From assembly GCA_016929395.1 (NCBI GenBank), contig JAFGIX010000043.1:1-32657 (forward strand): a stretch of 32,657 nucleotides of DNA, written 5' to 3'. The translations under genes and the position numbers were made by a program. Below, one piece after another: positions 1,069 through 17,260 of this stretch (the first letter of the stretch is position 1; every line of letters starts with the position of its first letter). Below the pieces are notes generated by a model. It did not search any database. It saw nothing but the letters and a program-made list of their open reading frames with translations, and had not been told where the DNA came from. This DNA comes from Candidatus Zymogenus saltonus (GTDB taxonomy: Bacteria > Desulfobacterota > Zymogenia > Zymogenales > Zymogenaceae).

Positions 1069-1704
1069 TCACTTCTTCATTATCCCGTGAAACGACATCT
1101 CGAGGGCTTGGCGAATCAGCTCGTCCAGGCTGAACCCGATCACGTTGACGACGTTGTCGCGCTCCTCGAGCAGGACCAGGCCGTCCATCAGGCCCCAGAA
1201 GACGCTCGTCGCCTTCCAGGTGTCGAGGGGGACGAATTCGCCGTTTTCAACGCCCTCGTTGAGCACACCCTCGATCTTCTTGAGCACGTTGAACGCCTTG
1301 GTGTTTATGATGCCGCTCAGCTCGGTGTCGGTCTCCTTCAGCTCGTCCGGCGTGGCGCTTAAGATAGCGATGATGTCGAAGTACTCCCTGTGCTCCCTGT
1401 AATATTTAAGATAGGCATGGGCAAGCTCGTAGAGCTTCTCTTTGGCGCTTAAGCCCGGCCGGGATACCACCCCGTCGATCATCTCCAGCAGAATATCGAG
1501 CCCCTCGTCCTGCAACGCCTTGTAGATCTCGATCTTGTTCTTGTAGTAGAAGTAGAAGGTCCCTATGCTCACTCCGGCTTGATCTGTGATCATCTCTATC
1601 GTGGTGCCGTAGTAGCCCTTGTCGAAGAAGAGCTCCTTGGCCACCTTGAGTATCTTCTCGCCCTTTGCCCTCTTGTCCTCTATCGTCCTTGCGCGCCGCT
1701 TCAT
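1069..1704 (-). CDS. TetR-family transcriptional regulator of the glycyl-radical operon
   Basis: The 211-residue protein has a TetR N-terminal helix-turn-helix at about residues 15-60: ILKVAKELFFDKGYYGTTI, then a recognition helix in GVSIGTFYFYYKNK. The C-terminal domain, about 70-211, is helical and would bind an effector. Length is typical of the family. It is transcribed away from the glycyl radical enzyme operon, with about 260 bp between the two start codons. That gap holds overlapping divergent promoters and a perfect 17-bp palindrome, so autoregulation plus control of the operon is the natural inference. Sugar operons are more often run by LacI, DeoR or AraC proteins, so the effector may be a pathway intermediate such as an aldehyde or acyl compound rather than the sugar itself. 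No effector can be named. Confidence 0.9.
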   Translation of the reverse strand: MKRRARTIEDKRAKGEKILKVAKELFFDKGYYGTTIEMITDQAGVSIGTFYFYYKNKIEIYKALQDEGLDILLEMIDGVVSRPGLSAKEKLYELAHAYLKYYREHREYFDIIAILSATPDELKETDTELSGIINTKAFNVLKKIEGVLNEGVENGEFVPLDTWKATSVFWGLMDGLVLLEERDNVVNVIGFSLDELIRQALEMSFHGIMKK

Positions 1705-1967: not shown

Positions 1968-4547
1968 ATGGAAATCAGAGACCTTGCGAGCGACCGCATA
2001 AAGAGGATCAGGAGGAGCTATCTTCGCGACCTCTCCGTCGTTTCCATCGAGAGGGCGAAGTATTACACCGAAAAGTGGAGGGAGACCGAGGGGAGCGGCC
2101 TCTCCAACGGGTTGAGGGTCGCCCTGGCGATGAAAAACGTCTACGAGAATATGGGCTTTTGGATAGACCCGGACGACCGCATCGCCGGGACGTGGACCGA
2201 GAACTACGTCGGGATACCCCTCGACCTGGAGCGGGGTCTCTTCAACGATGTGATGGAGATAGAGCTGGACGCCCTTTCCATGCTGGCCTCTTTGGTCAAG
2301 GGGAACATCAAGTTCATCATATATATGCTGAAGCAATACGGACTCCTCGATTTCTACAAGAATTTGAAGCAGACAAAGGAGGTCGGCGCGGCGATGCCGT
2401 CCATCGGTCTTAAACCGATCCACAGGCGGGACATCAATCCCTACACGATCAAGAGGCGCGACAAGAAGATACTCCAGAAAGATCTCCTCCCCTACTGGAA
2501 GGGTAAGACCGTCATCGACCGGTTCAAGAGGGGGCTCGAAGAATCGGGCGTCTACAGGGGTGACGTTCAGAGCTTCTTCGCCAGCCTTCCCTCCACCAAC
2601 TCGAAAAACGAGACGGTCATCTCCCCCGGCGCCGCCGTCGGTAACTGGCAGGGGCACGTTATCCCCGATCATGAAAGGGTCCTCAAGGTGGGGCTTCTCA
2701 AGATGAGGAAGGAGGTAAGAGAGGAGCTGAACAATGGTGCCGGCCTGTCGACAGGGGACCGCGACTTTCTGAAATCGATCGACATAGCCCTTAAGGGGGT
2801 GATCATCTTCGCCGAGCGCCTTGCCGAAAAGTTGGAGGAAGAGGCGGGGAAAGAGGGCGATCCAAAAAAGAAAAAAATTTTCTCGAAAATGCTGGAAAAC
2901 TGCAAAAAGGTTCCCCTCCACCCCGCGGAGACCTTTTCAGAGGCGGTGCAGTCCTACTGGACCGAAAAGACGGCCCTCGAGCTGGCGCTGCCTTTCAACG
3001 TCCACACGCCGGGCCGTCTCGACCAGATGTTTTACCCATACTATAAAAAGGATATTGACGAGGGCGTAATCACGAGGGAGGAGGCGTGCGAGCTTCTTGA
3101 AGAGCTTTTCCTCAAGGTGATGAGCCACAACATGCGGCCCTATTCCAACTTCAACGGCTATTTCGCCGCCCGCTACGAGGGATCGGAGCCGGTCACCCTC
3201 GGGGGCTTGGACGACGACGGCAACGACGCCGCAAACGAGCTGACATACCTGATGCTCGATGCCGCCGAGCGCTCCAAGACCTGCCTCAACTTCGCGGTGC
3301 GCTTCAACGAAAAATCCCCCGACGAGCTATATCTCAAGGTCGCCGACATGCAGTATCACGGGACGTCGAACGTGTCGGTTTTGAATGACGCGGTGTCCAT
3401 TGAGGCGCTGGAAAAACGGGGATACCCCAGGTCGGACGCGATCGGCTACGCCATGGCTAGCTGCGTCGACCTATGCATCCCAGCGAAGACCGGAAGCATT
3501 TCCTTTTCCGCCGTGCTCCTCTGCAGGATCTTCGATATGACGTTAAGAAACGGCGACGCAAGGACGCTCGTCGGCACGGTGAAGGGAGCGGGACTCAAGA
3601 CCGGCGACCCGGACTCGTTCAAGTCCTACGAGGAGCTCGAGGACGCCTTTATGAAACAGGTGGGGCTTCAGATGAGTCAGATCGCCGATGCGGCGAAGAT
3701 CAGGGATCGCGCCTTCGCGGAATTCCTCCCCTCCCCGCACATCTCCGCCTTCGTCCAGGGCCCCCTTGAAAAGAAAATGGACATCACAAAGGGGGGAGGG
3801 GTCTACGACCTCGAGGGGATACTGGTCATGAGCAGCATCGCCAACGTCGTGGATTCCCTCTACGTTATCAAGAAGCTGATCTTCGAGCAAAAGAGGTTCA
3901 CGTTTAAAGAGCTGATCGAGGCGATCGACCACAACTACGTCGGCTACGAGGATATGCATAATATGATTTTGGGCGTGGACGGCAAATGGGGAAACGGGTC
4001 GTCCGGCACCGACGAGATCGCCCACAGGGTGACCAAGCGCATCTTCGAGGAGACGTTCAAGCACGACACGTACAAGGGGGGATTCATCGCTCCCTTCGTC
4101 AACTCCATGACCTCCCACACCTATGACGGCCGCGTCTGTATCGCCACCCCGGACGGAAGGAAGGCGGCGGTGCCCTTCGCCGCGAGCTGCAACCCGTACA
4201 ATGTCGACAAAAACGGCCCGACCGGGGTTTTGCGCTCCGTCAGCTCCATAGATGCCACGAATGTCCTCGGCACGGCGGTCAATATAAGGATGCACCCCAC
4301 AGCCATCGGCGAGAGCGTTGAGGCGCGGAAAAAGTGGGTCTCATTGATAAAGGCCTATTTCAACATGGGGGGCGAGCAGCTCCAGCCCACGGTGGTCTCG
4401 ACCGATGTCTTAAGGGCCGCCCAAAAGGACCCCGAACAGTACATGAACGTAATCGTCAAGGTGGGCGGATACAGCGCCTACTTCGTGGACCTCGGACATG
4501 AGATACAGAACGAGGTCATCTCGAGGTCGGAGCATCGTCTCCTTTAG
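1968..4547 (+). CDS. Glycyl radical enzyme 1 (PFL-like, dehydratase/lyase group, CVD type)
   Basis: This 859-residue protein has the full glycyl radical enzyme architecture. The PFL-like domain covers about residues 10-700 and includes GHVIPDHE, PGRLDQMFYPYY and the thiyl-loop Cys499. The C-terminal glycyl domain has GGYSAYF with the radical glycine at Gly834, 25 residues from the end. The loop after Cys499 reads C-V-D-L-C-I-P-A-K-T-G. Characterised eliminating members (glycerol and propanediol dehydratase, choline lyase, hydroxyproline dehydratase) have Glu two residues after the Cys; here it is Asp501. An extra Cys503 is present, and the diol-binding Asp ten residues after the Cys is Gly. 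The HS pair before S-P-G-R in glycerol dehydratase is also absent. It is therefore a lyase or dehydratase-like enzyme of unknown substrate, not pyruvate formate-lyase (no Cys-Cys). It opens the operon and has a same-length paralogue at 9612. Confidence 0.93.
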   Translation: MEIRDLASDRIKRIRRSYLRDLSVVSIERAKYYTEKWRETEGSGLSNGLRVALAMKNVYENMGFWIDPDDRIAGTWTENYVGIPLDLERGLFNDVMEIELDALSMLASLVKGNIKFIIYMLKQYGLLDFYKNLKQTKEVGAAMPSIGLKPIHRRDINPYTIKRRDKKILQKDLLPYWKGKTVIDRFKRGLEESGVYRGDVQSFFASLPSTNSKNETVISPGAAVGNWQGHVIPDHERVLKVGLLKMRKEVREELNNGAGLSTGDRDFLKSIDIALKGVIIFAERLAEKLEEEAGKEGDPKKKKIFSKMLENCKKVPLHPAETFSEAVQSYWTEKTALELALPFNVHTPGRLDQMFYPYYKKDIDEGVITREEACELLEELFLKVMSHNMRPYSNFNGYFAARYEGSEPVTLGGLDDDGNDAANELTYLMLDAAERSKTCLNFAVRFNEKSPDELYLKVADMQYHGTSNVSVLNDAVSIEALEKRGYPRSDAIGYAMASCVDLCIPAKTGSISFSAVLLCRIFDMTLRNGDARTLVGTVKGAGLKTGDPDSFKSYEELEDAFMKQVGLQMSQIADAAKIRDRAFAEFLPSPHISAFVQGPLEKKMDITKGGGVYDLEGILVMSSIANVVDSLYVIKKLIFEQKRFTFKELIEAIDHNYVGYEDMHNMILGVDGKWGNGSSGTDEIAHRVTKRIFEETFKHDTYKGGFIAPFVNSMTSHTYDGRVCIATPDGRKAAVPFAASCNPYNVDKNGPTGVLRSVSSIDATNVLGTAVNIRMHPTAIGESVEARKKWVSLIKAYFNMGGEQLQPTVVSTDVLRAAQKDPEQYMNVIVKVGGYSAYFVDLGHEIQNEVISRSEHRLL

Positions 4548-4632: not shown

Positions 4633-5901
4633 ATGGTTTTACCATTCACATTCACGCCGATGCCCCATATCTACTTCGGAAGGGGCTCGATACAAAAGAT
4701 CGGCGATATTTCGGCGAAATTCGGCGGCTCCGTGCTCCTGATCACCGGCGGCGGCTCGCTGAAGCGAACGGGGAAGTTCGATGTGATAACAAAGGTCATT
4801 GGCCAAAAAAAGATCGAGTACGTCCATACCTCGGTTAGCGGCGAGCCGTCGCCTGGCCTGGTCGATGAAACCGTTTTGGAATTCAAGGACAAGCGGATAG
4901 ACGCCGTTCTTGCCGTAGGGGGCGGGAGCGTCATGGATTTCGGAAAGGCGGTCTCGGCAATGTTGATATTGGGGGGGAGGGAAGGCGTCTCCGTGGTCGA
5001 GTTCCTCGAGGGGATAGGAAACAGGAGCCACGACGGGAGCAAACTCCACTTTATCGCCGTTCCGACCACCTCGGGGACGGGGAGCGAGGCGACAAAAAAC
5101 GCAGTCCTGAGCGAGATAGGCGGGAATGGATTCAAGAAGTCGATAAGGCACGACAACTTCGTTCCCGATGCGGCGGTGATCGATCCCGAGCTCATGCTTT
5201 CCTGCCCGCCCGACGTAACCGCGGCGTGCGGGATGGACGCCTTAACCCAGCTCCTGGAATCGTATTTCTCCACCAAGGCAAGCCCTATGACCGACGCCCT
5301 GGCGATGAGCGGGATCGAGGCGGTCGGAAAGAGCCTAATTCCTGCGGCGATCGAGTCCCCCGATGACCTCGATGCGAGGGAGGGGATGGCCTACGGGGCG
5401 CTTGTATCGGGGATAACCCTCGCCAATGCTGGGTTGGGTCTCGTGCACGGCGTCGCATCTTTTGTCGGCGGATTTTTCGACATCCCCCACGGCGTTGTCT
5501 GCGCGAACCTCATGGGACCCGCCATGAAGGAGACCCTTGAGGCGTTAAATCGAGATGGGCGAGATGGGGCTGTTGACGAGGAAGTAAGGAGAAGGGCGCT
5601 CAAGAAGTTCGCCGTTGCCGGGGCGGCCCTCGACGGAAAGCGTATATCGAAAGAAAACGCGAAAGAAAACGCGAAAGAAAACGCAAAAGAAAACGCGAAA
5701 GAAAACGAGACCGACTATTTTTCACGCCTCCTCGTGGACAGGATCTACGAGCTTGTGGAACTGCTAAAAATCCCCCGTTTCGGCGAGTACGGGATAACGG
5801 AAGGGGATGTCGAGAAGATAGCATCGGTGGCCGAGAACAAGAACAACCCCGTGTCCCTCTCAAAAGATGTCATCGCGAGAGTAATTCGCGAGAGGTTGTA
5901 G
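4633..5901 (+). CDS. Iron-containing (type III) alcohol dehydrogenase
   Basis: The 422-residue product is an NAD(P)-dependent alcohol/aldehyde reductase of the iron-dependent family. The nucleotide-binding segment GGGSVMDFGKAVSAM lies near residues 95-110, followed by PTTSGTGSEAT. The metal site has Asp202, His272 and His286 (H-x13-H in HGVASF..IPHG). The second usual ligand, in MDALTH, is Gln206 here, so metal binding may be altered. A 20-residue insert (340-359) is made of KENA repeats and lies in the C-terminal helical domain. The start follows a strong GGAAGGGGG ribosome site. In this operon the likely job is reducing acetaldehyde released by the DeoC-type aldolase to ethanol, restoring NAD+; this is inference. 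A polyol or lactaldehyde substrate is also possible. Confidence 0.9.
   Translation: MVLPFTFTPMPHIYFGRGSIQKIGDISAKFGGSVLLITGGGSLKRTGKFDVITKVIGQKKIEYVHTSVSGEPSPGLVDETVLEFKDKRIDAVLAVGGGSVMDFGKAVSAMLILGGREGVSVVEFLEGIGNRSHDGSKLHFIAVPTTSGTGSEATKNAVLSEIGGNGFKKSIRHDNFVPDAAVIDPELMLSCPPDVTAACGMDALTQLLESYFSTKASPMTDALAMSGIEAVGKSLIPAAIESPDDLDAREGMAYGALVSGITLANAGLGLVHGVASFVGGFFDIPHGVVCANLMGPAMKETLEALNRDGRDGAVDEEVRRRALKKFAVAGAALDGKRISKENAKENAKENAKENAKENETDYFSRLLVDRIYELVELLKIPRFGEYGITEGDVEKIASVAENKNNPVSLSKDVIARVIRERL
5650..5709 (+). repeat. In-frame 12-bp tandem repeat inside the alcohol dehydrogenase
   Basis: Five adjacent copies of AAAGAAAACGCG (one with GCA, the last with GAG) encode Lys-Glu-Asn-Ala four times and then Lys-Glu-Asn-Glu. 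The unit is a multiple of three, so changes in copy number alter the length of a charged linker without shifting the frame. Confidence 0.95.
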
Positions 5902-5929: not shown

Positions 5930-7420
5930 ATGTATATTTTGTCTGTTGACCTCGGCACACAGAGCATCAGGGCCGCGGTCGTCTCCAAGGACGGGGAGAT
6001 AAAGGGAATCCGCCAGATACCGCACGATGTCAGAAGCCCGAGGGCGGGCTGGGCAGAGCAGAGGCCCGACTCGTGGTGGGAAAACGCAAGGGATGCGATT
6101 AGGGGTGTCCTTGAAGAGACCGGTGTTTCCCCGAAATCGATAGCCGGTGTCGTGTCGTGCGGGCAGATGCACGGCCCGGTCGGGATCGACGGCGACGGGA
6201 GAGTCACGACAGAGTGGACACAGCTCTGGAGCGACAAGCGGTGCGAGGATCAGTGCGTCCGGGTGAGGGAAAACCACGACGTTGGTGAATTGGCTGCGAT
6301 AACCGGAAATCAGCCGACCGCCGGCTGGGTGGCAATGAAGGTTGGGTGGATCAAAGAGCACCGGCCCGATATTTATAAAAAGAGCAGATGGTTTCTGGTG
6401 CCGAAGGACTTCATCAACTTTCGTCTTACCAATACTGCCGCGACTGACCCCAGCGAGGCCTCGGGGACATACCTCTGGGATGCGAAAAGAGACGTGTACT
6501 CCGGCGAGATGGCCGAGATTTTGGGCCTCGACCTCGAAAAGTTCGCCCCCGTCATTTCCGCCCATGAAATCTCGGGCACGGTTACCGATTCCGCCGCCGA
6601 GGAGACCGGGCTTATATCTGGTACTCCCGTAATCTGCGGCGGGGGAGATTTCCTGGTATCCCTCCTGGGCCTCGGGCTGACCGGGGAGGGGGACGCTGTA
6701 GACATCACCGGGACGAGCACGCTCTTTGTGGTCAAAAGGAGGGAGCCAATCGCACACCCCTTCGTCCAGAACCTCAGGCATGTCGCCGGGGGCTGGGCTC
6801 CCTTCTTCATGCTCGACTCCGGGGGGATCGCCATGAAGTGGTGCCGGGACCTCTTGAGCTCCGCGGGAAACGGCGAGGTTGACTATGACGAGATGATCGA
6901 CATGGCAAGGGGCGTGCCTCCGGGGAGCGGCGGGCTTATCTTTTACCCTTATCTCTTCGGGGAGAGGAGGAGGGAAAACACGGGCGCCATGGGGGCATTT
7001 TTCGGGATCACGCACGAGCACCTTGCGTCCCACTTCGCCAGGGCGGTGATGGAGGGCACGGCCCTCTCGATCGGGATGAACCTCGATATATTCAAGAGGG
7101 TCGGCATCGAGGTCGGGCGGGTTGTCTGCGCCGGGGGCGGGACGAAAAACGATCTCCTTTTGGAGATCAAGGCGAATGTGTTTGGCATACCCCTCGAGGT
7201 CTCGGACGAGCCGGAGTCGACGATAATCGGCTCCGCCCTCCTGGGGGGATACGGCGTCGGACTTATCGACGACATCGGCGACGCAGCAAAAAGGATCTAT
7301 AAGAAGTGCAAAAAAAGAAAGATAAGGCCGAACAGGAGTGCGGCCGCCCGCTATCGTGAGATACAGGGGCGGTTCAACCGGGTCTACGATAAGATGGTCG
7401 GTTTTTACGAGAATTACTAA
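5930..7420 (+). CDS. FGGY-family carbohydrate kinase (xylulokinase-like)
   Basis: The 496-residue protein is an ATP-dependent sugar or polyol kinase of the FGGY family. The N-terminal domain opens with the phosphate-binding loop MYILSVDLGTQSIRAAVV and contains GWAEQRPDSWW and the GQMHG motif typical of xylulokinases near residue 83. The C-terminal ATPase domain has GGGDFLVSLLGLGL, VCAGGGTKNDLLLEIKANV and EPESTIIGSALLGGYG. Family members phosphorylate xylulose, ribulose, glycerol, erythritol or ribitol, so the substrate cannot be fixed from sequence. The context suggests a five-carbon sugar or polyol that feeds the DeoC-type aldolase. The ribosome site ahead of ATG 5930 is weak; an upstream ATG at 5914 is out of frame. 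The gene follows the dehydrogenase by 28 bp. Confidence 0.9.
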   Translation: MYILSVDLGTQSIRAAVVSKDGEIKGIRQIPHDVRSPRAGWAEQRPDSWWENARDAIRGVLEETGVSPKSIAGVVSCGQMHGPVGIDGDGRVTTEWTQLWSDKRCEDQCVRVRENHDVGELAAITGNQPTAGWVAMKVGWIKEHRPDIYKKSRWFLVPKDFINFRLTNTAATDPSEASGTYLWDAKRDVYSGEMAEILGLDLEKFAPVISAHEISGTVTDSAAEETGLISGTPVICGGGDFLVSLLGLGLTGEGDAVDITGTSTLFVVKRREPIAHPFVQNLRHVAGGWAPFFMLDSGGIAMKWCRDLLSSAGNGEVDYDEMIDMARGVPPGSGGLIFYPYLFGERRRENTGAMGAFFGITHEHLASHFARAVMEGTALSIGMNLDIFKRVGIEVGRVVCAGGGTKNDLLLEIKANVFGIPLEVSDEPESTIIGSALLGGYGVGLIDDIGDAAKRIYKKCKKRKIRPNRSAAARYREIQGRFNRVYDKMVGFYENY

Positions 7421-7442
7421 TTAAATATAGAAGGAAATCCAT

Positions 7443-8141
7443 ATGAGATTAACACGCCGTGATGTTGCAAGGATGATCGATTCGAGCATCGTGAGGCCCG
7501 AGGTGGACGAGTCGGAGCTTTACGAGTTCGCCCAGTCTGTAAAGAAATATAGATATATAGGGGCCCACGTCCTACCCTATTTCGTCGCGGAGCTGAACGG
7601 GCTTCTTGGCGGGGACGATGACATCCTGATCGGCACCGGGATAGGGTTCCCGTTCGGGAATCACAAGACAGACGTAAAACTGCTCGAGGCGAAGATTGCG
7701 CTTACTGACGGATGCAGGGAGCTTGACATGGTGATAAACGTCAGCGCGCTGTTGAGCAGGCGCCTCGATTACGTGATCGACGATATCAGGACTGTAAAAG
7801 AGGCGGCGGGAGAAAGGACGCTCAAGGTCATCCTCGAGGTCCACTGGCTCAATGATGACGACATAAAGCGGGGCTGCGAGTGCGTCATAAAGGGGGGGGC
7901 CGACTTCGTCAAGACCTCCACTGGGCACACGCCCACCGGGGCCACCAGAGAAAACATCGCGCTTTTGAAATCGATCGTGGGGGACGACCTCAAGATCAAG
8001 GCTTCCGGGGGCGTAAGAGACCTCTCGACCCTCGTCGAACTTTACAGGCTCGGAGCGACCAGATTCGGGATAGGAGGGGCGTCGGCGGTAAATATAATGA
8101 GGGAGTTCGACAAGATTCCTGAGGGAGGCGTGGAAGTGTAA
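7443..8141 (+). CDS. deoC: DeoC/class I aldolase, deoxyribose-phosphate aldolase-like
   Basis: The 232-residue protein is a TIM-barrel class I aldolase. Key DeoC elements are visible: the Asp of ELDMVINV (Asp95), the Schiff-base Lys in ADFVKTSTGHTPTGAT (Lys157) and the second Lys in KASGGVRD (Lys186). DeoC splits 2-deoxyribose 5-phosphate into acetaldehyde and glyceraldehyde 3-phosphate. Two places differ from the textbook enzyme: the conserved CVxP segment reads HVLP at about residues 39-42, and the C-terminal phosphate-binding RIGTSS-like segment reads FGIGGAS. A related substrate is therefore possible. It lies 22 bp after the kinase with an AAGGAA ribosome site. It gives the operon its clearest chemical clue, cleavage yielding a two-carbon aldehyde. 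The symbol follows family membership. Confidence 0.85.
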   Translation: MRLTRRDVARMIDSSIVRPEVDESELYEFAQSVKKYRYIGAHVLPYFVAELNGLLGGDDDILIGTGIGFPFGNHKTDVKLLEAKIALTDGCRELDMVINVSALLSRRLDYVIDDIRTVKEAAGERTLKVILEVHWLNDDDIKRGCECVIKGGADFVKTSTGHTPTGATRENIALLKSIVGDDLKIKASGGVRDLSTLVELYRLGATRFGIGGASAVNIMREFDKIPEGGVEV

Positions 8142-8196
8142 TTAGATATTTCGGGTCTTTCGAGTTCATTTTAAAAAACATTTATAGGATATTGAT

Positions 8197-9615
8197 ATGA
8201 TTGAAGAAACCCTGGCGACCGCCGGCAAAAAGGAGGGCGCTTTTATAAGTCGATTGACGGTGCCCATGAAGCTCGGCTACGGGGCAGGAGAGGTGGCTTT
8301 TAATATCGCATATCAGACAACGGCCCTCCATCTTATTTTCTATTTTACGGACATTTTCGGCATCGCCGCGGGGGCTGCCGGCATGATCATGTTCTATTCA
8401 AAAATATGGGACTCGATAAGCGATCCGATGATGGGGTACATCTCCGATCACACGAAATCTCGGTGGGGCAGCAAGCGCCCGTACCTTCTCCTCGGGGCAA
8501 TCCCCCTCGGCTTAACCTTCATGCTCCTCTTCTATTCCCCCCAAATCGGCCCGGAGAGGCTGAAGATCGTCTACGGCATCGTCACGTTCGTCCTCTTCTG
8601 CACGGCGATCACGATAGTCAACGTTCCCTACGGTGCGCTGACGGCGAACCTCACACTCGACTCGAACGAGCGGTCGGTAGTCACGGGATACAAGGGCGTC
8701 TTCGGCATTGTCGGGGTCCTTATTGCCGCGGCGGCAACACGCCCGATTGCGGATTTCCTCGGGAAAGGGGATCAGGTAATCGGTTTTCGATACATGGGTT
8801 TTGTGTACGGCTTTGTAATCATCGCGGCCGTCCTTGTCACATTCTTTTCCGTCAGGGAATTGGTAGCACAACCGAAGAAAGAGAGATCGTCTTTTCTTGA
8901 AAATCTAAAGGTAATCTTCTCAAACAAGCCGTTCTTGATACTATCGGCGGGCACCGTCTTCCACCTGACGGCTGTGATGACTACGGCGGCGGTCGTGAAC
9001 TACTATTTCAAATACATCCTCAAAAATGAGGCTATGATACCGGCGGCCTTCCTCTGCCTGTTCGTGACGGCGATCGCCTTCATGCCCCTCTTCGTCAAGA
9101 TATCGACGAAGAAGAGCAAGAAATTCGCGTACAACCTCGGGATCGGGAGCTTTGCGGTCGTGCTCGTCCTTCTCTTCTTTTTCGGGGAGAGGAACATATA
9201 TCTTACGCTCTTTTTATTTTTCCTTGGGGCGGCGGGGATGGCGACGAACTGGCTTTCGGCCTGGTCGATGGTTCCCGATACCGTGGAATATTCCCAGTGG
9301 AAGACAGGGATCAGGAGGGAGGGCGTGATTTACGGCGCATTCTTCTTTTGCCAGAAGCTTCCCGCGGCCCTGGCGGCCTTTATCGTAGGAATTGTCTTAA
9401 CGCGGGTGGGCTATGTCGCAAACGTCGAGCAGACCGAGCTGTCCCTCATGGGGATACGTCTCCTTCTGACCCTGATCCCTGTCGGCTTCATCATAATAGG
9501 CATCGTCTTTATATCGCTCTTCCCGATAGACGCTTCGATGCACAAAAAGATACTCCGCGACATCGAGGAGCGGGAGAGGTCAAAAAAAAAGAAATTTAAA
9601 AGAGGTGTTAAATGA
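8197..9615 (+). CDS. GPH-family (melibiose-carrier type) sugar:cation symporter
   Basis: This 472-residue integral membrane protein has about twelve hydrophobic segments and the glycoside-pentoside-hexuronide symporter signatures. Early on is LGYGAGEVAFNIAY, then the conserved D-x-I-S-D-P-M-M-G-x-I-S-D-H-T-K-S-R-W-G loop near residues 70-90 followed by KRPY. The protein ends in a basic tail (EERERSKKKKFK). Family members bring in galactosides, pentosides, xylosides or related compounds with Na+ or H+. It is probably the uptake system for the operon's substrate. Its stop overlaps the start of glycyl radical enzyme 2 by four bases (ATGA at 9612-9615), so the two are translationally coupled. Confidence 0.92.
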   Translation: MIEETLATAGKKEGAFISRLTVPMKLGYGAGEVAFNIAYQTTALHLIFYFTDIFGIAAGAAGMIMFYSKIWDSISDPMMGYISDHTKSRWGSKRPYLLLGAIPLGLTFMLLFYSPQIGPERLKIVYGIVTFVLFCTAITIVNVPYGALTANLTLDSNERSVVTGYKGVFGIVGVLIAAAATRPIADFLGKGDQVIGFRYMGFVYGFVIIAAVLVTFFSVRELVAQPKKERSSFLENLKVIFSNKPFLILSAGTVFHLTAVMTTAAVVNYYFKYILKNEAMIPAAFLCLFVTAIAFMPLFVKISTKKSKKFAYNLGIGSFAVVLVLLFFFGERNIYLTLFLFFLGAAGMATNWLSAWSMVPDTVEYSQWKTGIRREGVIYGAFFFCQKLPAALAAFIVGIVLTRVGYVANVEQTELSLMGIRLLLTLIPVGFIIIGIVFISLFPIDASMHKKILRDIEERERSKKKKFKRGVK

Positions 9616-12191
9616 GCGATCTGACCGATACAAGCGAAAGAATAGCGAGGCTCAGGCGCCGCTACCTGAAGGAGGTGGCGGTCGTCTCGATCCAGCGGGC
9701 GAAATATTACACCGAGTCCTGGATAAAAACCGGGGAAAGCGGGCTCTCCGCCGCAGAAAGGGTCGCCCTGGCAATGAAAAACGTGTACGAGAATATCGAA
9801 TTTTCGGTCGACCCGGATGACCGGATCGCCGGGACGTGGACCGAAAACTTCCTCGGCGTCCCCATCGACATCGAGAGGGGGCTGTTCAACGAGGTCCTCC
9901 GCATCGAGCTAAAAAAGAGGACGATGTTTCTCCACATCTTAAAGGACAACCTCAGGTTCGTATCTTACATGATTAGGAGATACGGGCCGGCCTCTTTGGT
10001 AAAAAGCCTCATGGAGACGAGCGCGGTCGGGGCGGCAATGCCGTCGATCGGGACGACCACGATGGACAAGAGAGAGATCAATCCTTGCACGGTAAAGAGG
10101 GAAGACAAAAAGATACTTCTGAAAAAGCTCCTCCCGTACTGGCGGGGAAAGAGTATCGCCGACAAACTGAAGGAGAGGCTTATCGAAGGTGGCATCTTCA
10201 AGGGGGACATGGAGAGTTTTTACGCGTCGCTCCCCTCCACCACATCGAGAAAGGATATCGTGATATCGCTCGGGGCCGCGATGGGGGTCTGGCAGGGGCA
10301 CCTGATCCTCGACCACGAGACACCCCTTAAAAAAGGGCTTTACGCCATGCAGCAGGAGATAAAGAAGGTGATCGAGGACGGGAGTCACGCCGATGAGGAG
10401 CTTCAGTTCCTGCGATCGCAGGAGATCGCCGTTGAGGGCGTCATCACCTTCGCAAAAAGATTTAACGAGTATCTGAAAAAGGCCTATGAGGGCGAGGAAA
10501 ATCCCGAAAGGAAAAAGATACTCGCTATAATGGTCAAGAATACGGCCTCGGCCCCCCTCTTTCCGGCGGGCGGGTTCAGGGAGGCGGTCCAGTCCTACTG
10601 GACGATAAAGACTGCGGTTGAGCTGGCAATCCCGTTTAACGTCCACGCACCGGGCCGCCTGGATCAATATTTTTATCCATATTACGAAAAGGACATTCGA
10701 GAGGGGAAGATCACGAGGGAGGAAGCGCGGGAGCTGATTGAGGAGCTACTCCTCAAGATCATGACCCACAACATGCGCCCCGACTCTAACTATCAGGGGA
10801 TTTTCGGCCAGAGGTACGAGGGGTCGGAGCCGGTGACCCTCGGCGGCTTGACGCCCAAAGGGATTGACGCCACAAACGATCTTACATACCTCATCCTGGA
10901 GGCGGCGCACCGCTCGAAGAGCGCCCTAAACATTGTCGTGAGGATCCATCGCAATTCCCCCAAGGAGCTGATCCTCAAGGTCGCCGACCTCCATTACAAC
11001 GGGACGTCAAGCGTCTCACTGATGAACGACGAGGTCTCGGTCGCCGCGATGAAAAAGAGGGGATTTTCCGATCCCGACTCGAACGACTACGCGATAACAG
11101 GGTGCGTCGACATGTGCGCACCGGGAAAGACCGGTGGGATAGGCTTTTCCGCCCTGCTCATGGCTAGGACGCTCGACATGACGCTGAGAAACGGAGACGG
11201 GAAGACCCTCGTGGGCACGGTCCGCGGAGTAGGGCCGAGGACCGGCGACCCGGACGCGTTCTCGTCGTTTACGGAGTTTTACGCCGCCTACCTCCACCAG
11301 GCGAAGAAGATGATCGAGCTTATAGTCGAGGCCACCCACATCCGCGACAAACTCTACGCCGAAGAGCTTCCCGCGCCGTATATTTCGCTTTTCATGCGGG
11401 GGTGCCTGGAAAAGAAACGGGACGTGACGCATGGGGGCGCGACCTACGATCTTGAGGGGATACTCTTTATGAACAGCATCGCCAACGTTGTCGATTCCCT
11501 CTACGTCATAAAAAAGCTGATATTCGAGAAGAAGGCGCTCGACTTTACGACCTTGATTAACGCTGTCGATCACAACTTTATGAGATACGAGGATATCCAC
11601 CAGAAGATAAAGGCGTTGGACGGAAAGTGGGGAAACGCAAATCCTGAGTCGGACGCCATCGCCCACGATCTCACGAAGGAGCTCTTCGAGGAGACATACA
11701 AATACAAGACCCTAAAGGGCGGGCCGTACGCCCCCTTCATCAACAGCATGACATCCCACACGTTTGACGGCAGGGTCTCCCTCGCCACGCCTGACGGGAG
11801 GAAGGCGGCGACCCCCTATGCCGCCAGCTGCAATCCCTACAACGTGGACAGCAAGGGGCTGACCGGTGTGCTCAGGTCTGTCGCGGCCCTCGATTTCACC
11901 GATGTCTTAGGGTGCGCCGTAAACGTAAGGCTCCATCCCTCCGCCATCGGCGAGAGTGAGGAGGCGAGGCGAAAATACTCGTCCTTGATACAGACCTACT
12001 TCAAGTTAGGGGGCGAACAGCTCCAGCCGACCGTGGCATCCACCGAGGTGTTGAGGTTAGCCCAAAAAGAGCCGGAGAACTACGGCGACTTAATCGTTAA
12101 GGTCGGCGGTTACAGCGCCTATTTCGTCGATCTGGGGAGGGAGATTCAGGACGAGATCATCTCCCGCTCCGAGCACACAAAAAACGCGTAG
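9612..12191 (+). CDS. Glycyl radical enzyme 2 (paralogue of the first, CVD type)
   Basis: The 859-residue protein has the same length and plan as the first enzyme and can be aligned to it from end to end. The thiyl loop is C-V-D-M-C-A-P-G-K-T-G with Cys498, Asp500 and Cys502; the radical glycine is Gly833 in GGYSAYFVDLG. The shared CVDxC loop and matching changes around PGRLDQ show that the pair forms one distinct subgroup. Differences include GHLILDHE in place of GHVIPDHE and many changes in the 280-320 region, so the two may act on different stereoisomers or on successive intermediates, or form a heteromer. It is coupled to the transporter by a 4-bp overlap and lies directly ahead of the only activase. 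The reaction is unknown; dehydration or C-O cleavage of a polyol is inferred from the neighbours. Confidence 0.93.
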   Translation: MSDLTDTSERIARLRRRYLKEVAVVSIQRAKYYTESWIKTGESGLSAAERVALAMKNVYENIEFSVDPDDRIAGTWTENFLGVPIDIERGLFNEVLRIELKKRTMFLHILKDNLRFVSYMIRRYGPASLVKSLMETSAVGAAMPSIGTTTMDKREINPCTVKREDKKILLKKLLPYWRGKSIADKLKERLIEGGIFKGDMESFYASLPSTTSRKDIVISLGAAMGVWQGHLILDHETPLKKGLYAMQQEIKKVIEDGSHADEELQFLRSQEIAVEGVITFAKRFNEYLKKAYEGEENPERKKILAIMVKNTASAPLFPAGGFREAVQSYWTIKTAVELAIPFNVHAPGRLDQYFYPYYEKDIREGKITREEARELIEELLLKIMTHNMRPDSNYQGIFGQRYEGSEPVTLGGLTPKGIDATNDLTYLILEAAHRSKSALNIVVRIHRNSPKELILKVADLHYNGTSSVSLMNDEVSVAAMKKRGFSDPDSNDYAITGCVDMCAPGKTGGIGFSALLMARTLDMTLRNGDGKTLVGTVRGVGPRTGDPDAFSSFTEFYAAYLHQAKKMIELIVEATHIRDKLYAEELPAPYISLFMRGCLEKKRDVTHGGATYDLEGILFMNSIANVVDSLYVIKKLIFEKKALDFTTLINAVDHNFMRYEDIHQKIKALDGKWGNANPESDAIAHDLTKELFEETYKYKTLKGGPYAPFINSMTSHTFDGRVSLATPDGRKAATPYAASCNPYNVDSKGLTGVLRSVAALDFTDVLGCAVNVRLHPSAIGESEEARRKYSSLIQTYFKLGGEQLQPTVASTEVLRLAQKEPENYGDLIVKVGGYSAYFVDLGREIQDEIISRSEHTKNA

Positions 12192-12199
12192 CTTAAAAA

Positions 12200-13105
12200 A
12201 TGGGAATAGTCTTTGACATCCAGCCCTACTCCATCTACGACGGCCCGGGGATAAGGACCACGGTCTTCCTGAAGGGATGCCCGCTTAATTGCGTGTGGTG
12301 CCACAACCCGGAGTCTCAGCGGCAAAGGCCGGAGATGGGTTACACCGTCGACAAATGCGCCTCCTGCGGAAAATGCATCGAGGAATGCCCCAATGGCGCC
12401 CTGACACTGATGGACAAAAAGGTCGTGCGGGATTACCGGCGGTGCGCCGCGTGCGGTCTGTGCGGGGAGACGTGCCCGAACGGCGCCCACGAGAAAATAG
12501 GCCTTGAGATGAGCGCCGGGGATATAGTCAAAAAGGTCGTTTTGGACAAGCCCTTCTTCGACGAGTCCTCGGGAGGCGTGACGATCACCGGTGGCGAGCC
12601 CACCGCCCAGAGAGAGTTCCTGCTTAAGATCGTAGATCTCCTCAGAGAAAAAGATATTCATATCGCCCTCGAGACGTGCGGCTATTTTAAAACGGACATT
12701 GTATCGACCCTGATAGAAAGGGTTGACCTCTTTCTATTTGACATAAAACATATCGATCCCGAAATCCACAAGACCTTCACCGGGGTGGACAACGGCTTGA
12801 TCCTCGAGAACTTCAGACTAATAGCGGGAAACGGGGGGAGCGGGCGGGTCATCCCGCGGATCCCCCTCATCCCAGGCTTTAACGCCGATACGAGCTCTTT
12901 GAAAGAAATATGCGAATTTTTAAGAGAGACAAAATATCCAGGTCCCGTTCACCTGATGCCCTATAACCGCATGGCGAAGAGCAAGTATGAAAAGCTGGGG
13001 AGGGGCGGGGAGTATCGGGATATGGGGGAGCTGACGAGGGATATGCTGGACGGTTGCGTAAATCTCCTTGGGGATTATGGATTTGAGGCGGTGATAAATC
13101 ATTGA
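12200..13105 (+). CDS. Glycyl radical enzyme activating enzyme (radical SAM)
   Basis: The 301-residue product installs the glycyl radical by reductive cleavage of S-adenosylmethionine. The radical SAM motif C-P-L-N-C-V-W-C has Cys27, Cys31 and Cys34. Two ferredoxin-type 4Fe-4S motifs follow, CASCGKCIEECP and CAACGLCGETCP, between about residues 53 and 95. This insert is typical of activases for dehydratase-type glycyl radical enzymes and is missing from the pyruvate formate-lyase activase. GGVTITGGEPTAQ forms the SAM-binding GGE region. It starts 8 bp after glycyl radical enzyme 2, and as the only activase here it presumably serves both enzymes. It is the last gene of the operon. Confidence 0.95.
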   Translation: MGIVFDIQPYSIYDGPGIRTTVFLKGCPLNCVWCHNPESQRQRPEMGYTVDKCASCGKCIEECPNGALTLMDKKVVRDYRRCAACGLCGETCPNGAHEKIGLEMSAGDIVKKVVLDKPFFDESSGGVTITGGEPTAQREFLLKIVDLLREKDIHIALETCGYFKTDIVSTLIERVDLFLFDIKHIDPEIHKTFTGVDNGLILENFRLIAGNGGSGRVIPRIPLIPGFNADTSSLKEICEFLRETKYPGPVHLMPYNRMAKSKYEKLGRGGEYRDMGELTRDMLDGCVNLLGDYGFEAVINH

Positions 13106-13584: not shown

Positions 13585-15126
13585 ATGGCTGTATATGATA
13601 TAGCCAGGGGAACGCGGGACTTCCTGCCACAGGATATGGTTGTGCGTAATCATGTGGAATATATTATTCGCAATACATTCGAGTCTTATGGTTTTCAACA
13701 AATCCAAACTCCGATCTTTGAGAGATTTGAGCTCCTTGCGGCAAGGTCCGGTGAGGAAATCCGTGAATCGATGTTCACCTTCGTATCGGATCGCGAGGAG
13801 TACGCCTTGCGCCCCGAGTTGACGGCGCCCGTGTGTCGTGTGATTGCATCCGGTAAGCTCAGCAAGCTTCCGGTTCCATATAAGCTTTACTATATAGGCC
13901 AGTGTTTTCGCTACTGCCGACCGCAGGCGGGACGTTACAGGGAATTTACTCAGGCCGGTTTGGAGCTGATGGGTTCAAAAGATCCGATAGCCGATGCGGA
14001 GGTCATAGCTATTGCCGTAAAAACACTAAAAAATCTTGGAATCGATCAATATAAGGTCAAGATAGGAAATATCGGGATTTTTAGAGGCATCCTCGAAAAA
14101 GAGTACTCGGACGATTACGATAAGCAGAGCCGGGTTATAAACAATATTGACCACATAATGAGCGTGTGGGAGAAGTGTGACGCCATTAAAAGCCACGCCT
14201 CTTTTAACCAGGAGGATTTCGATTTTATCAAGGTCGAAACGGAATCATTGTACCGCATTCAGGAAGATATAGGATATTCGGGTGAGCATGAAATATTGCC
14301 CGTGTCCGATCTGGGCGGCGGTAAAGCCGGTAACAATGATCAGCAATTAAAGGAGAAAGCGACGGATCGACTGAATATGCTTTCTCTGGCAATAGAATCG
14401 ACCTATCGTGCATTGTGGTCGAAGGAAAATATTGTCTCGGAAAAGGTCGCCGCCCTGTTGATCGATATCGCCCGAATGAGGGGGAAATACGAAGAAATTA
14501 TTCCGAAAGCCGAGAAACTTCTCTCCGGCACACCCACCTTGGATGCCTTGGAGCAGCTCTCTCAGGTCTCCCGGTTTCTGTTAAGCTTTGGAGTGGCTGA
14601 CTTCGACATCGTTCTCGGGGTCGCCCGTGGTTTGGATTTCTATACCGATACGGTATTTGAAATCGATTCGCCGCTGCTTGGGGCGCAGAAGCAGATCTGC
14701 GGCGGCGGGCGCTATGATAAACTCGTAGAAGAGTTCGGGGGAATAAGCATACCGGCAACGGGATTCGCTTTCGGTTTTGACAGGATTATAGAGACATTCA
14801 TTAAGACCGGAAAGGCCGTCGATCTTGCGCCTGTCAGCGTTTTTGTGGCCAATGTGGATGACAGCTGTAAATTTCGAGCGGTTGAGGTGGCCGATTCATT
14901 GAGATCCAGCAATTTTCGCGCCAGCGTGGATCTTCTCGGACTCAGCCTTAGAGACCAGCTCGGCTATGCCTCAAAAATTGGAGCTGAGTTTGCGGTGATT
15001 GTAGGTCCTGATGAGCTCAAAGAGGATAAGTGTAAGCTTCGCCAATTGGAAACTCGTTTCGAGGAAATAGTTCCCCTCTCAGCTTTGGTTGATAAGATCA
15101 AAGATATAAGAAAATCCGGCAAATGA
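13585..15126 (+). CDS. hisS: Histidyl-tRNA synthetase, long form
   Basis: The 513-residue class II synthetase charges tRNA-His with histidine. Visible are the N-terminal ARGTRDFLPQD, motif 1 near residues 40-60, motif 2 in FRYCRPQAGRYREF, the histidine-binding Q-A-G-L-E, the HisA-type loop VARGLDFYTDTVFE, CGGGRYDKLVEEFGG, and motif 3 in PATGFAFGFDR. A C-terminal anticodon-binding domain covers about 415-510. Catalytic residues appear intact, which argues for a true synthetase over the HisZ regulatory paralogue. It is about 90 residues longer than common bacterial HisRS because of an insert around 190-300, and the usual Glu of motif 2 (RYERP) is Cys. It lies 78 bp after its own tRNA and directly before a short HisG, so a second role as HisZ-like partner is possible. 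It has a strong AGGAGGAG ribosome site. Confidence 0.88.
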   Translation: MAVYDIARGTRDFLPQDMVVRNHVEYIIRNTFESYGFQQIQTPIFERFELLAARSGEEIRESMFTFVSDREEYALRPELTAPVCRVIASGKLSKLPVPYKLYYIGQCFRYCRPQAGRYREFTQAGLELMGSKDPIADAEVIAIAVKTLKNLGIDQYKVKIGNIGIFRGILEKEYSDDYDKQSRVINNIDHIMSVWEKCDAIKSHASFNQEDFDFIKVETESLYRIQEDIGYSGEHEILPVSDLGGGKAGNNDQQLKEKATDRLNMLSLAIESTYRALWSKENIVSEKVAALLIDIARMRGKYEEIIPKAEKLLSGTPTLDALEQLSQVSRFLLSFGVADFDIVLGVARGLDFYTDTVFEIDSPLLGAQKQICGGGRYDKLVEEFGGISIPATGFAFGFDRIIETFIKTGKAVDLAPVSVFVANVDDSCKFRAVEVADSLRSSNFRASVDLLGLSLRDQLGYASKIGAEFAVIVGPDELKEDKCKLRQLETRFEEIVPLSALVDKIKDIRKSGK

Positions 15127-15136
15127 AATTTTAAAT

Positions 15137-15916
15137 ATGGGCAAGGATATTATTAGAATGGCTGTGCCCAAGGGCAGCCTTCAGAAGTTGACATCCGAGT
15201 TTTTCAAGAAAACGAGTATTGAAATCGAGGATTACGATTCCGGCAGCCGCAACTATAGACCAAAAATCGGGATGGAAGGGGTCGAGATCAAGGTTTTGAG
15301 GCCTCAGGAGATTCCGATCTTGGTCTCCAGGGGCTACTATGACATAGGCATAAGCGGCCTCGATTGGTATCGTGAATCCCGATGCGAAAACAATGTTGAG
15401 GATTTACTGGACCTTGGCTTCGGCAAAGTGGATATTGTGCTGGCCGTCCCGGACAGCTGGAGCGACATCAACAGTCCGTCGGACCTTTTTGATAGGTTCA
15501 ACGAGCCCTCGCACCCTTTGCGGATATGGACCGAGTATATTAATTTGACGGAAGATTTCGTGTTTAGATACGTAAACATAGAACCCACGATTGTAAGTCC
15601 ATATATGGGTCTTCACCGTGGACGTCACTCGCCGATAATAATATTTCACTCCTTCGGCGCTACGGAGTCCAAGCCTCCTGAGGACGGCGAGGCCATTATT
15701 GACAATACGGAGACCGGCCGCACTCTCGTTCAAAATAACCTTAAAATATTACATAAGGTACTGCCGGCTTCGACCGCCAGGTTATTGGCAAACAGAAGGA
15801 CGCTCTTGGACAAGGAGAAGGAAAAGCGGATCGAGGCGATAAGAAATGCGTGCGAGGTGGGGGTGCCGGCAAAATTGACGAGAAGTCGCGTTTTCAATGG
15901 ACATATAGATTTCTGA
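15137..15916 (+). CDS. hisG: ATP phosphoribosyltransferase-like protein (short-form HisG)
   Basis: The 259-residue product resembles the catalytic subunit that joins ATP and PRPP in the first step of histidine synthesis. Family signs are MAVPKGSLQKL at the start, the segment RPQEIPILVSRGYYDIGISG at about 55-75, the PRPP-binding AIIDNTETGRTLVQNN near 190-205, and STARLLANRR. It ends about 25 residues after the last motif and so lacks the C-terminal regulatory ACT-like domain of long HisG. Short HisG proteins normally need the HisRS paralogue HisZ; here the neighbour is a HisRS that looks catalytic. The loop before the PRPP motif is diverged, so another phosphoribosyl transfer cannot be excluded. 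It starts 10 bp after hisS, and no other his gene is present. Confidence 0.75.
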   Translation: MGKDIIRMAVPKGSLQKLTSEFFKKTSIEIEDYDSGSRNYRPKIGMEGVEIKVLRPQEIPILVSRGYYDIGISGLDWYRESRCENNVEDLLDLGFGKVDIVLAVPDSWSDINSPSDLFDRFNEPSHPLRIWTEYINLTEDFVFRYVNIEPTIVSPYMGLHRGRHSPIIIFHSFGATESKPPEDGEAIIDNTETGRTLVQNNLKILHKVLPASTARLLANRRTLLDKEKEKRIEAIRNACEVGVPAKLTRSRVFNGHIDF

Positions 15917-15955
15917 GTTTGGTGAGCTTAAGACAACTTTTTTGATCAGGTAATC

Positions 15956-17260
15956 GTGTTAGAAGATATAATTAACATAGTGTTCGCCGGGCACGTGGAT
16001 CACGGCAAGTCCACGCTTGTGGGCCGCATTTTTTACGAATGCGGGCAAATCCCGGATCAAATGTTCGAGAGACTTCAAAGGCATGCAGATGCGGTGGGGA
16101 AATCCTCATTCCACTTTGCCTTTTACACAGATTCCACATTGGAGGAGCGTCAGCGCGGCATAAGCATCGAGGTGGCCTACAAGGGATTCGAGAGAAACGG
16201 CCGACGTTACAATATCATCGATGTGCCGGGACACAAAGACTTTATTAAAAACATGATTTCCGGAACCGCCGAAGCGGATATAGCGGTGTTGGTTATTGAT
16301 GCCAAGGAGACATCCAACAGTGGGGCGGCCCCCCAGACAAGAGAGCATCTACTGATCCTCAGGGCCTTGGGGATAGAGAATATGATTGTCGCCGTCAACA
16401 AGATGGACACGGTTGGATACAGCGAGGAATCATTCGAGCTGTGTAAAATGGAGATCGAACACTTTTGTGAGCGAATACAGTATTCCTTTAAGGAAGATAT
16501 AAGATTCATTCCAATCTCGGCACTTTACGGCGACAATGTTGCGCAACACACCGAGAATCCCTCATGGTATCAAGGTCCTACCTTGTTGGAGGTCCTGGAC
16601 TCAATACCGAAGCCGGAGAGACCCGTTGAAAAGCCTCTGCGTATGCCCATCCTCAGGACATTCAGCGTCACGGGTATAGGTACCGTGGTGGCGGGAAGGA
16701 TCGAGACCGGCACAATACAGCCGAAGGACGAGGTGGTCATTACGCCCTATCCGGGCGTCGGGGTGATTCAAGCCGAGATCAAGTCCATCGAGTGGCAGCA
16801 TAAAAGCGTCGACTCCGCGGCCGCCGGAGACGATGTCGGTGTCCTGCTTACGAAACAGGAGAAGGGTTTTGCCGCGAGAAAGGTCAAAAAAGGCTCGGTA
16901 CTTGCCTCTCCGGTAAATCCCCCCAGGGCGGCAGGAAGATTCAAGGCGGAGATCATGCTGGTCGATCACCCCTCCGGCATTCGGGCAGGATATGTTCCGT
17001 ACCTCCATGTTCATCAGGCCGCCATGCCCTGTTCGATTTCCGAGATCGTCACCGCCTGGGACCCGCAGGGAGAAGAGAAGAAGTTGGACGACGATACCCT
17101 CCTCAAAAACGGCGACACGGCCGTGGTCTGGATTGTCCCGACAAAACCCCTGGTAATAGAGGAGGCAAATGTAAATCCACGGCTCGGCAATTTCATTTTG
17201 AGGGACGGCCGCACCGTGGCGATAGGAAAATGTCTGGAAGTGGAGTTGGCCGACATATAA
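15956..17260 (+). CDS. EF-1alpha/EF-Tu-like translational GTPase
   Basis: The 434-residue GTPase has all G motifs: GHVDHGKST (residues 12-20), RGISIE in switch I (Ser70 where EF-1alpha has Thr), DVPGHKDF with catalytic His93, NKMD (148-151) and SAL. Domains 2 and 3 follow, introduced by YQGPTLLEVLDSIP and GIGTVVAGRIETGTI. CGQIPDQMFERL, TLEERQRGI and W-x-G-P-T-L are closer to archaeal/eukaryotic EF-1alpha and its relatives than to the bacterial EF-Tu that carries normal translation. The HVDHGK start argues against CysN, which has SVDDGK. It begins with GTG and lies 39 bp after hisG. Its place in a tRNA-His/HisRS/HisG unit suggests a role in delivering or handling His-tRNA, but nothing in the sequence proves it. 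Confidence 0.85.
   Translation: MLEDIINIVFAGHVDHGKSTLVGRIFYECGQIPDQMFERLQRHADAVGKSSFHFAFYTDSTLEERQRGISIEVAYKGFERNGRRYNIIDVPGHKDFIKNMISGTAEADIAVLVIDAKETSNSGAAPQTREHLLILRALGIENMIVAVNKMDTVGYSEESFELCKMEIEHFCERIQYSFKEDIRFIPISALYGDNVAQHTENPSWYQGPTLLEVLDSIPKPERPVEKPLRMPILRTFSVTGIGTVVAGRIETGTIQPKDEVVITPYPGVGVIQAEIKSIEWQHKSVDSAAAGDDVGVLLTKQEKGFAARKVKKGSVLASPVNPPRAAGRFKAEIMLVDHPSGIRAGYVPYLHVHQAAMPCSISEIVTAWDPQGEEKKLDDDTLLKNGDTAVVWIVPTKPLVIEEANVNPRLGNFILRDGRTVAIGKCLEVELADI

Follow-up and report, generated by a model that had tools for sequence, protein, structure and literature searches.

Glycyl radical eliminases are commonly recognized by the glutamate of a CxE motif, which is regarded as their defining catalytic residue, and the question arises what enzymes of this superfamily do when that residue is an aspartate. 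Two such enzymes, GRE1 and GRE2, are encoded in a single operon of the uncultured bacterium Candidatus Zymogenus saltonus, within a stretch of 32,657 nucleotides (GCA_016929395.1, contig JAFGIX010000043.1, positions 1 to 32,657) that we analyzed as a whole and refer to as the window. An earlier note on this DNA had described two 859-residue paralogues with a C-V-D-x-C loop, and both the open reading frames and the codon positions agree with that description (Table 1). It had also set the loop against the CxE of characterized eliminating enzymes, and here the literature is explicit: the papers on HypD and IslA describe CxE as a conserved motif of the glycyl radical eliminases and report that E-to-Q exchange abolishes activity (PMC7077986, PMC8473560). 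Since all characterized glycyl radical eliminases have CxE, CxD is a true deviation.

Table 1. Operon genes and residues of the two glycyl radical enzymes, in window coordinates.
Feature	Position	Strand	Basis or remark
TetR-family regulator	1069-1704	-	divergent from operon
GRE1	1968-4547	+	859 residues, Asp-clade glycyl radical enzyme; Ser498 precedes catalytic Cys
GRE1 Glu404-Gly-Ser-Glu407	3177-3188	+	strand beta-3, clade-specific acids
GRE1 Cys loop S498-C499-V500-D501-L502-C503	3459-3476	+	translation
GRE1 codons Cys499; Asp501; Cys503	3462-3464; 3468-3470; 3474-3476	+	
GRE1 Gly834	4467-4469	+	predicted radical glycine (VGGYSAYF)
Iron-containing alcohol dehydrogenase (Fe-ADH)	4633-5901	+	predicted aldehyde reductase; PF00465
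FGGY carbohydrate kinase	5930-7420	+	xylulokinase-like
DeoC, deoxyribose-phosphate aldolase family	7443-8141	+	TIGR00126, 191.9 bits vs cut-off 117.3
GPH-family (glycoside-pentoside-hexuronide) cation symporter	8197-9615	+	TIGR00792, 349 bits vs cut-off 231
GRE2	9612-12191	+	859 residues, Asp-clade glycyl radical enzyme; canonical Gly precedes Cys
GRE2 Cys loop C498-V-D500-M-C502	11103-11117	+	translation
GRE2 codons Cys498; Asp500; Cys502	11103-11105; 11109-11111; 11115-11117	+	
GRE2 Gly833	12108-12110	+	predicted radical glycine
Radical-SAM glycyl radical enzyme activase	12200-13105	+	TIGR02494, 319 bits vs cut-off 174

That both proteins belong to the superfamily is evident from their scores for PF02901 (446-452 bits) and PF01228 (71-78 bits), both over the cut-offs, and from the retention of the thiyl cysteine (499/498) and the radical glycine (834/833) in the two sequences, which are 60% identical to each other. 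Neither lies inside a curated family with a demonstrated substrate: membership of any NCBIfam equivalog was rejected, with scores for HypD, CutC, HpsG/HpfG, the indoleacetate and hydroxyphenylacetate decarboxylases and PFL all at or below 44% of the respective cut-offs. The earlier note had further proposed that glycine replaces the substrate-binding aspartate of diol dehydratases ten residues after the cysteine. The contact is indeed lost, but residue and offset were wrong, as glycerol dehydratase Asp447 lies at Cys+14 and is aligned with Phe513 of GRE1 and Phe512 of GRE2, which rules out a Gly-for-Asp substitution; position Cys+10, occupied by Glu in glycerol dehydratase and by Asp in the Roseburia enzyme, is not the substrate contact. 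In the alignment HypD and HpsG likewise have no Asp at the Asp447 position, and its absence is therefore not diagnostic.

In a phylogenetic tree calculated without the motif columns, the CVDxC proteins fell into a clade of their own (SH-aLRT 97-98) in which all 32 members carry CxD, while Glu occupies the same position in 16 of the 17 members of the sister clade. The distinct subgroup suggested earlier is thus borne out as a clade, although CVDxC does not by itself define it, because the position of Cys503 is variable (Val, Leu, Ala, Ser) and CxD arose independently in at least two unrelated places (L055; L036/L083). The first of these is a Phycisphaerae member of the Glu-type sister clade (L055, 9735-12422) with CVD, an independent change from Glu to Asp. 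An independent paired case outside the Asp clade is found at L098 (G050:C29), where two adjacent glycyl radical enzymes (6514-8925 and 9901-12300) both have CxD (GCIDAA, GCLDVN), in the neighborhood of genes for Opp and TRAP transporters and PrpD. The 3.76-Mb Zymogenus genome encodes six glycyl radical enzymes in total, two of them in the window operon, and another (L003, G000:C64:7741-9576) shows Tyr in place of the CxE glutamate (GCVYLELPGKN), as does its relative L030. With CxD elsewhere and Tyr in L003, the acid position of the Cys loop can evidently change, and what is special about the Asp clade is the fixation of Asp together with other changes.

The bacterial members of the clade stem from Zymogenaceae and further Desulfobacterota, from Dehalococcoidia and from one actinobacterium (Actinomycetota), to which Lokiarchaeota and relatives add 20 archaeal sequences. 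When the threshold was set strictly, matches came from 25 of the 227 Asgard genomes, some of these being Glu-type sister enzymes, and from one of 350 genomes in a Chloroflexota sample. No relatives were found in viral contigs, and none from plasmids exceeded 30% identity among the matches listed. We regard the subfamily, which is common to sediment bacteria and Asgard archaea, as undescribed; a literature search covering mainly openly available papers found no published description of the group. A clade that does without the glutamate, and does so in several phyla of bacteria and in many Asgard archaea, would mean that a different acid-base arrangement is compatible with the chemistry.

Which residues changed along with the loop? 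Compared column by column with the sister clade, Glu404 is fixed in the Asp clade (31/31), where the sister clade has Leu throughout, and Glu407 is present in 30 of 31 sequences, where the sister clade has Thr, Ser or Ala; His387 (31/31), Glu616 and Val345 are also fixed. Taken together, the Asp501-for-Glu exchange and the new Glu404 and Glu407 mean that the loop acid was shortened while acids were gained on strand beta-3. One explanation is that Asp501 is too short and that Glu404 and/or Glu407 took over as the catalytic base in a new active-site layout. This would account for the joint appearance of both glutamates with Asp501 and their absence from the CVE sister clade, and it gains from their alignment with HypD residues 338 and 341 in an ungapped span (338-341) that flanks Asp339, which is essential and part of a proton/hydrogen-bond network, and Phe340, which contacts the substrate (PMC7077986); Glu404 and Glu407 may reach the substrate in GRE1. 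However, a joint appearance on a single branch could simply reflect substrate recognition, and the earliest-branching member, L072, combines Glu404 and Asp501 with Ala407, so that we consider a relocated base possible but rather doubtful.

On the plus strand the order of the operon genes is GRE1, Fe-ADH, FGGY kinase, DeoC, GPH symporter, GRE2 and activase, the last directly downstream of GRE2 and the one activase common to both copies. The best NCBIfam match of the Fe-ADH is lactaldehyde reductase, under the cut-off; the protein contains a low-complexity insert with a KENAKENAKEN repeat at residues about 342-360. Against XylB the kinase scores 336.8 bits, under the curated cut-off of 380.25, and is not assigned as a xylulokinase. 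DeoC is the sole deoC product of the genome and retains the catalytic Lys/Lys/Asp in the alignment, with a phosphate loop that reads GIGGASA instead of GTSSG (GVGAASA in the G002 protein); its substrate may for this reason differ from deoxyribose-5-phosphate. After the operon, at 13585-17260, follow genes for HisRS-like, HisG-like and elongation-factor-like GTPase proteins that do not appear to belong to it.

Gene context was then scored within 11 kb of 27 Asp-clade and 18 Glu-type sister loci, and the resulting counts are to be read as contrasts, not as independent trials, because the loci share ancestry and some of them cover little sequence. An activase is present at 26 of the 27 Asp-clade loci, a GPH symporter at 17, a KDPG aldolase at nine, an orthologue of the kinase at six and DeoC at two. 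The sister loci have no GPH symporter, neither aldolase and no kinase; ADC-like genes occur at ten of the 18 and acyl-CoA dehydrogenase genes at six. Sister-clade enzymes beside acetoacetate-decarboxylase-like and acyl-CoA dehydrogenase genes (L047, L050, L052-L054, L068) seem to mark an uncharacterized pathway of their own. The different gene context and the additional acidic residues argue for a new substrate or base geometry, as the earlier note had supposed. At L039 (9315-12269), L061 (12569-16578) and L049 (13533-15675), genes for URO-D-type methyltransferases and corrinoid-binding proteins stand beside Asp- and Glu-clade enzymes, a recurrence that hints that certain lineages use methylated substrates.

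The kinase forms a group of its own (50-66% identity, with the next-best kinase outside it at 32%) that is represented in seven of the ten Asp-clade genomes searched, six times beside the Asp-clade enzyme and in G003 within a block of Fe-ADH, kinase and DeoC. This block occurs in all three Zymogenaceae having the enzyme, even when it lies on another contig (G003:C27), apart from a TetR-GPH-GRE2-activase block, and its separate position in G003 suggests that Fe-ADH, kinase and DeoC form a unit. The GRE2 orthologue of the third Zymogenaceae genome (L093, G003:C5:10653-13222) is split into several frames with a stop and is either a disrupted gene or an assembly error.

Given the sugar-uptake, sugar-kinase and aldolase genes alongside, the enzymes probably dehydrate a sugar-like compound as the first step of its fermentation. 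They lack one defining feature of characterized eliminases, CxE, and yet probably work as eliminases on carbohydrates. That GRE1 and GRE2 represent an undescribed carbohydrate C-O-lyase (dehydratase) branch of the glycyl radical enzymes is the reading that we favor, with slightly better than even confidence; judged on sequence alone, cleavage of C-C or C-N bonds is conceivable instead. In glycyl radical enzymes of this kind, an activase makes the glycyl radical, a thiyl radical takes a hydrogen from the substrate, a neighboring group leaves and the hydrogen is returned. In the scheme that we infer, from reaction class and substrate to order of steps, base and role of the pair, a carbohydrate-type substrate would be imported by the GPH symporter, and the shared activase would generate the glycyl radical and, from it, the thiyl radical on Cys499 or Cys498. 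The thiyl would abstract hydrogen from a carbinol carbon, the adjacent C-O bond would be lost and an α-deoxy carbonyl compound would result; in this operon, conversion of a pentitol (or its 5-phosphate) to a 2-deoxypentose (or its 5-phosphate) appears likeliest, as the start of the simplest route that balances. The FGGY kinase would provide the phosphate, DeoC would cleave the product to glyceraldehyde-3-phosphate and acetaldehyde, and Fe-ADH would reduce the aldehyde to the alcohol at the expense of NADH from glyceraldehyde-3-phosphate oxidation, rendering the fermentation redox-neutral. We know of no FGGY kinase that acts on 2-deoxyribose, and the pentitol/DeoC route in exactly this form is put forward tentatively. 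With it the operon provides a concrete proposal, open to test, of how uncultured microbes of sediments may ferment sugar-like substrates.

The archaeal loci complicate this scheme. All nine KDPG aldolase loci, which as loci of related archaea are not independent of one another, are archaeal, and four archaeal loci also contain genes for a 2-hydroxyacid dehydrogenase, a cupin glucose-6-phosphate isomerase and a protein of the metallo-beta-lactamase fold (UlaG-like). A protein of about 315 residues that is conserved in archaea and has no Pfam match (L041, 6781-7731, with orthologues in L058, L147 and L159) adjoins the cupin isomerase and 2-hydroxyacid dehydrogenase genes of Asp-clade loci. KDPG aldolase requires a 2-keto acid, and its occurrence in archaea together with orthologous kinases fits a pure pentitol route awkwardly. 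Because these loci have KDPG aldolase and not DeoC, the clade may not follow one pathway throughout. Conceivably, an aldonate or uronate-derived acid is dehydrated to a 2-keto-3-deoxy acid, with the radical enzyme in the place of the Entner-Doudoroff dehydratase and with the DeoC-like protein as an aldolase altered to suit a related product. Besides the genes at the archaeal loci, KDPG aldolase among them, the transport of hexuronides by GPH symporters and the changed phosphate loop of DeoC agree with such a route. It is nonetheless rather unlikely, as DeoC scores well above its curated cut-off with its catalytic residues intact, KDPG aldolase is absent from the window operon and iron-sulfur dehydratases already perform the reaction in anaerobes. 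The product itself we infer to be an α-deoxy carbonyl compound, the type cut by both DeoC and KDPG aldolase.

Why the operon should contain two copies is a question in its own right. Two copies in one operon are indeed the case in Zymogenaceae, in Dehalococcoidia and in a single actinobacterium, but the archaeal loci are mostly single-copy. TetR orthologues stand at the head of the two-copy loci in Dehalococcoidia and the actinobacterium, which have no kinase or aldolase nearby; the lokiarchaeal genome G508 has an Asp-clade gene pair of its own, about 3 kb apart, whose members fall into different parts of the archaeal branch. In all five GRE1-type proteins, from three phyla, Ser precedes the Cys in place of a Gly that is otherwise nearly invariant in the alignment, and every one of them co-occurs with a GRE2-type partner. 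Both these features would suit a non-catalytic or regulatory role of GRE1 (Ser498-Cys499) as partner of GRE2. GRE1, however, retains all radical residues, has no deletions and shows the lowest dN among the operon genes compared (0.086 at a dS of 1.3; GRE2, 0.153; kinase, 0.262), and a partner role of this kind is quite improbable. A dead second copy was rejected on the basis of dN/dS: GRE1 and GRE2 are under strong purifying selection, and GRE1, as the most constrained operon gene tested, argues against it. In the dehydratase scheme, GRE1 and GRE2 would each serve one C2-epimer, and the two would converge on the same product because dehydration across C1-C2 removes the C2 stereocenter. The picture in full, in which the base left the Cys loop for the beta-3 acids, a radical route common to anaerobic bacteria and Asgard archaea leads from polyols or sugar acids to aldolase-ready deoxy sugars, and paired copies merge epimers, is a conjecture that we would not expect to hold in every part.

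How do the enzymes compare with known systems? An AlphaFold2 model of GRE1 (66-row alignment, mean pLDDT 92.9) has the full eliminase fold, and its best PDB matches in the Foldseek/VIA list, which covers only the families shown there, are glycerol and 1,2-propanediol dehydratases (1r8w, 5i2g, 9rco; Z 44-45, rmsd 1.7-1.9, 771-772 residues; for 1r8w, Z 45.1 and 1.7 Å over 771 residues). These dehydratases share with GRE1 the closest predicted fold, the thiyl Cys, the radical Gly, the beta-1 His and an activase in the operon, but they are only about 30% identical and form a separate clade. The substrate contacts of glycerol dehydratase, which we take to be His164, His281, Ser282, Tyr339, Glu435 and Asp447, are replaced in GRE1 by Asn344 (His281), Val345 (Ser282), Ser406 (Tyr339), Asp501 (Glu435) and Phe513 (Asp447), and only His164 is kept, as His230. 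A diol dehydratase of the microcompartment type was rejected, as the genome encodes no BMC shell protein. HypD, the trans-4-hydroxy-L-proline dehydratase, likewise has the eliminase fold and the conserved beta-1 His (His160). It differs in its CxE, in its Asp278 and Phe340, which correspond to Asn344 and Ser406 of GRE1, and in score (404 bits against a cut-off of 1100), and the operon contains no proline genes.

Escherichia coli YbiW and PflD resemble the Zymogenus enzymes as a paralogue pair in a carbohydrate context with an activase and an aldolase beside ybiW; the adjacent fsaA is a precedent for a glycyl radical enzyme with a neighboring aldolase. PDB titles list both with bound anhydrohexitol 6-phosphates, and they reportedly act on epimeric anhydrohexitol phosphates that converge in one pathway. 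By analogy, GRE1 and GRE2 could open an anhydro-sugar or another ether ring instead of dehydrating a vicinal diol, since here, too, a radical-enzyme pair is combined with a phosphorylating step, an aldolase and an alcohol dehydrogenase. We hold this to be very unlikely, because YbiW and PflD have CxE and group outside the Asp clade, separated from it by supported branches with long end branches of their own, and because the aldolase is of another type (Fsa versus DeoC/KDPG); kinase and uptake system also differ. The uncharacterized CVE sister clade from Lokiarchaeota, Hydrogenedentota, UBP15 and other hosts matches the two enzymes in length, in the beta-1 His, in Asn344 and in the VGGYS glycyl loop, at about 50-53% identity, but differs in having Glu in the Cys loop, Leu404 and, in place of sugar genes, ADC-like and acyl-CoA dehydrogenase neighbors.
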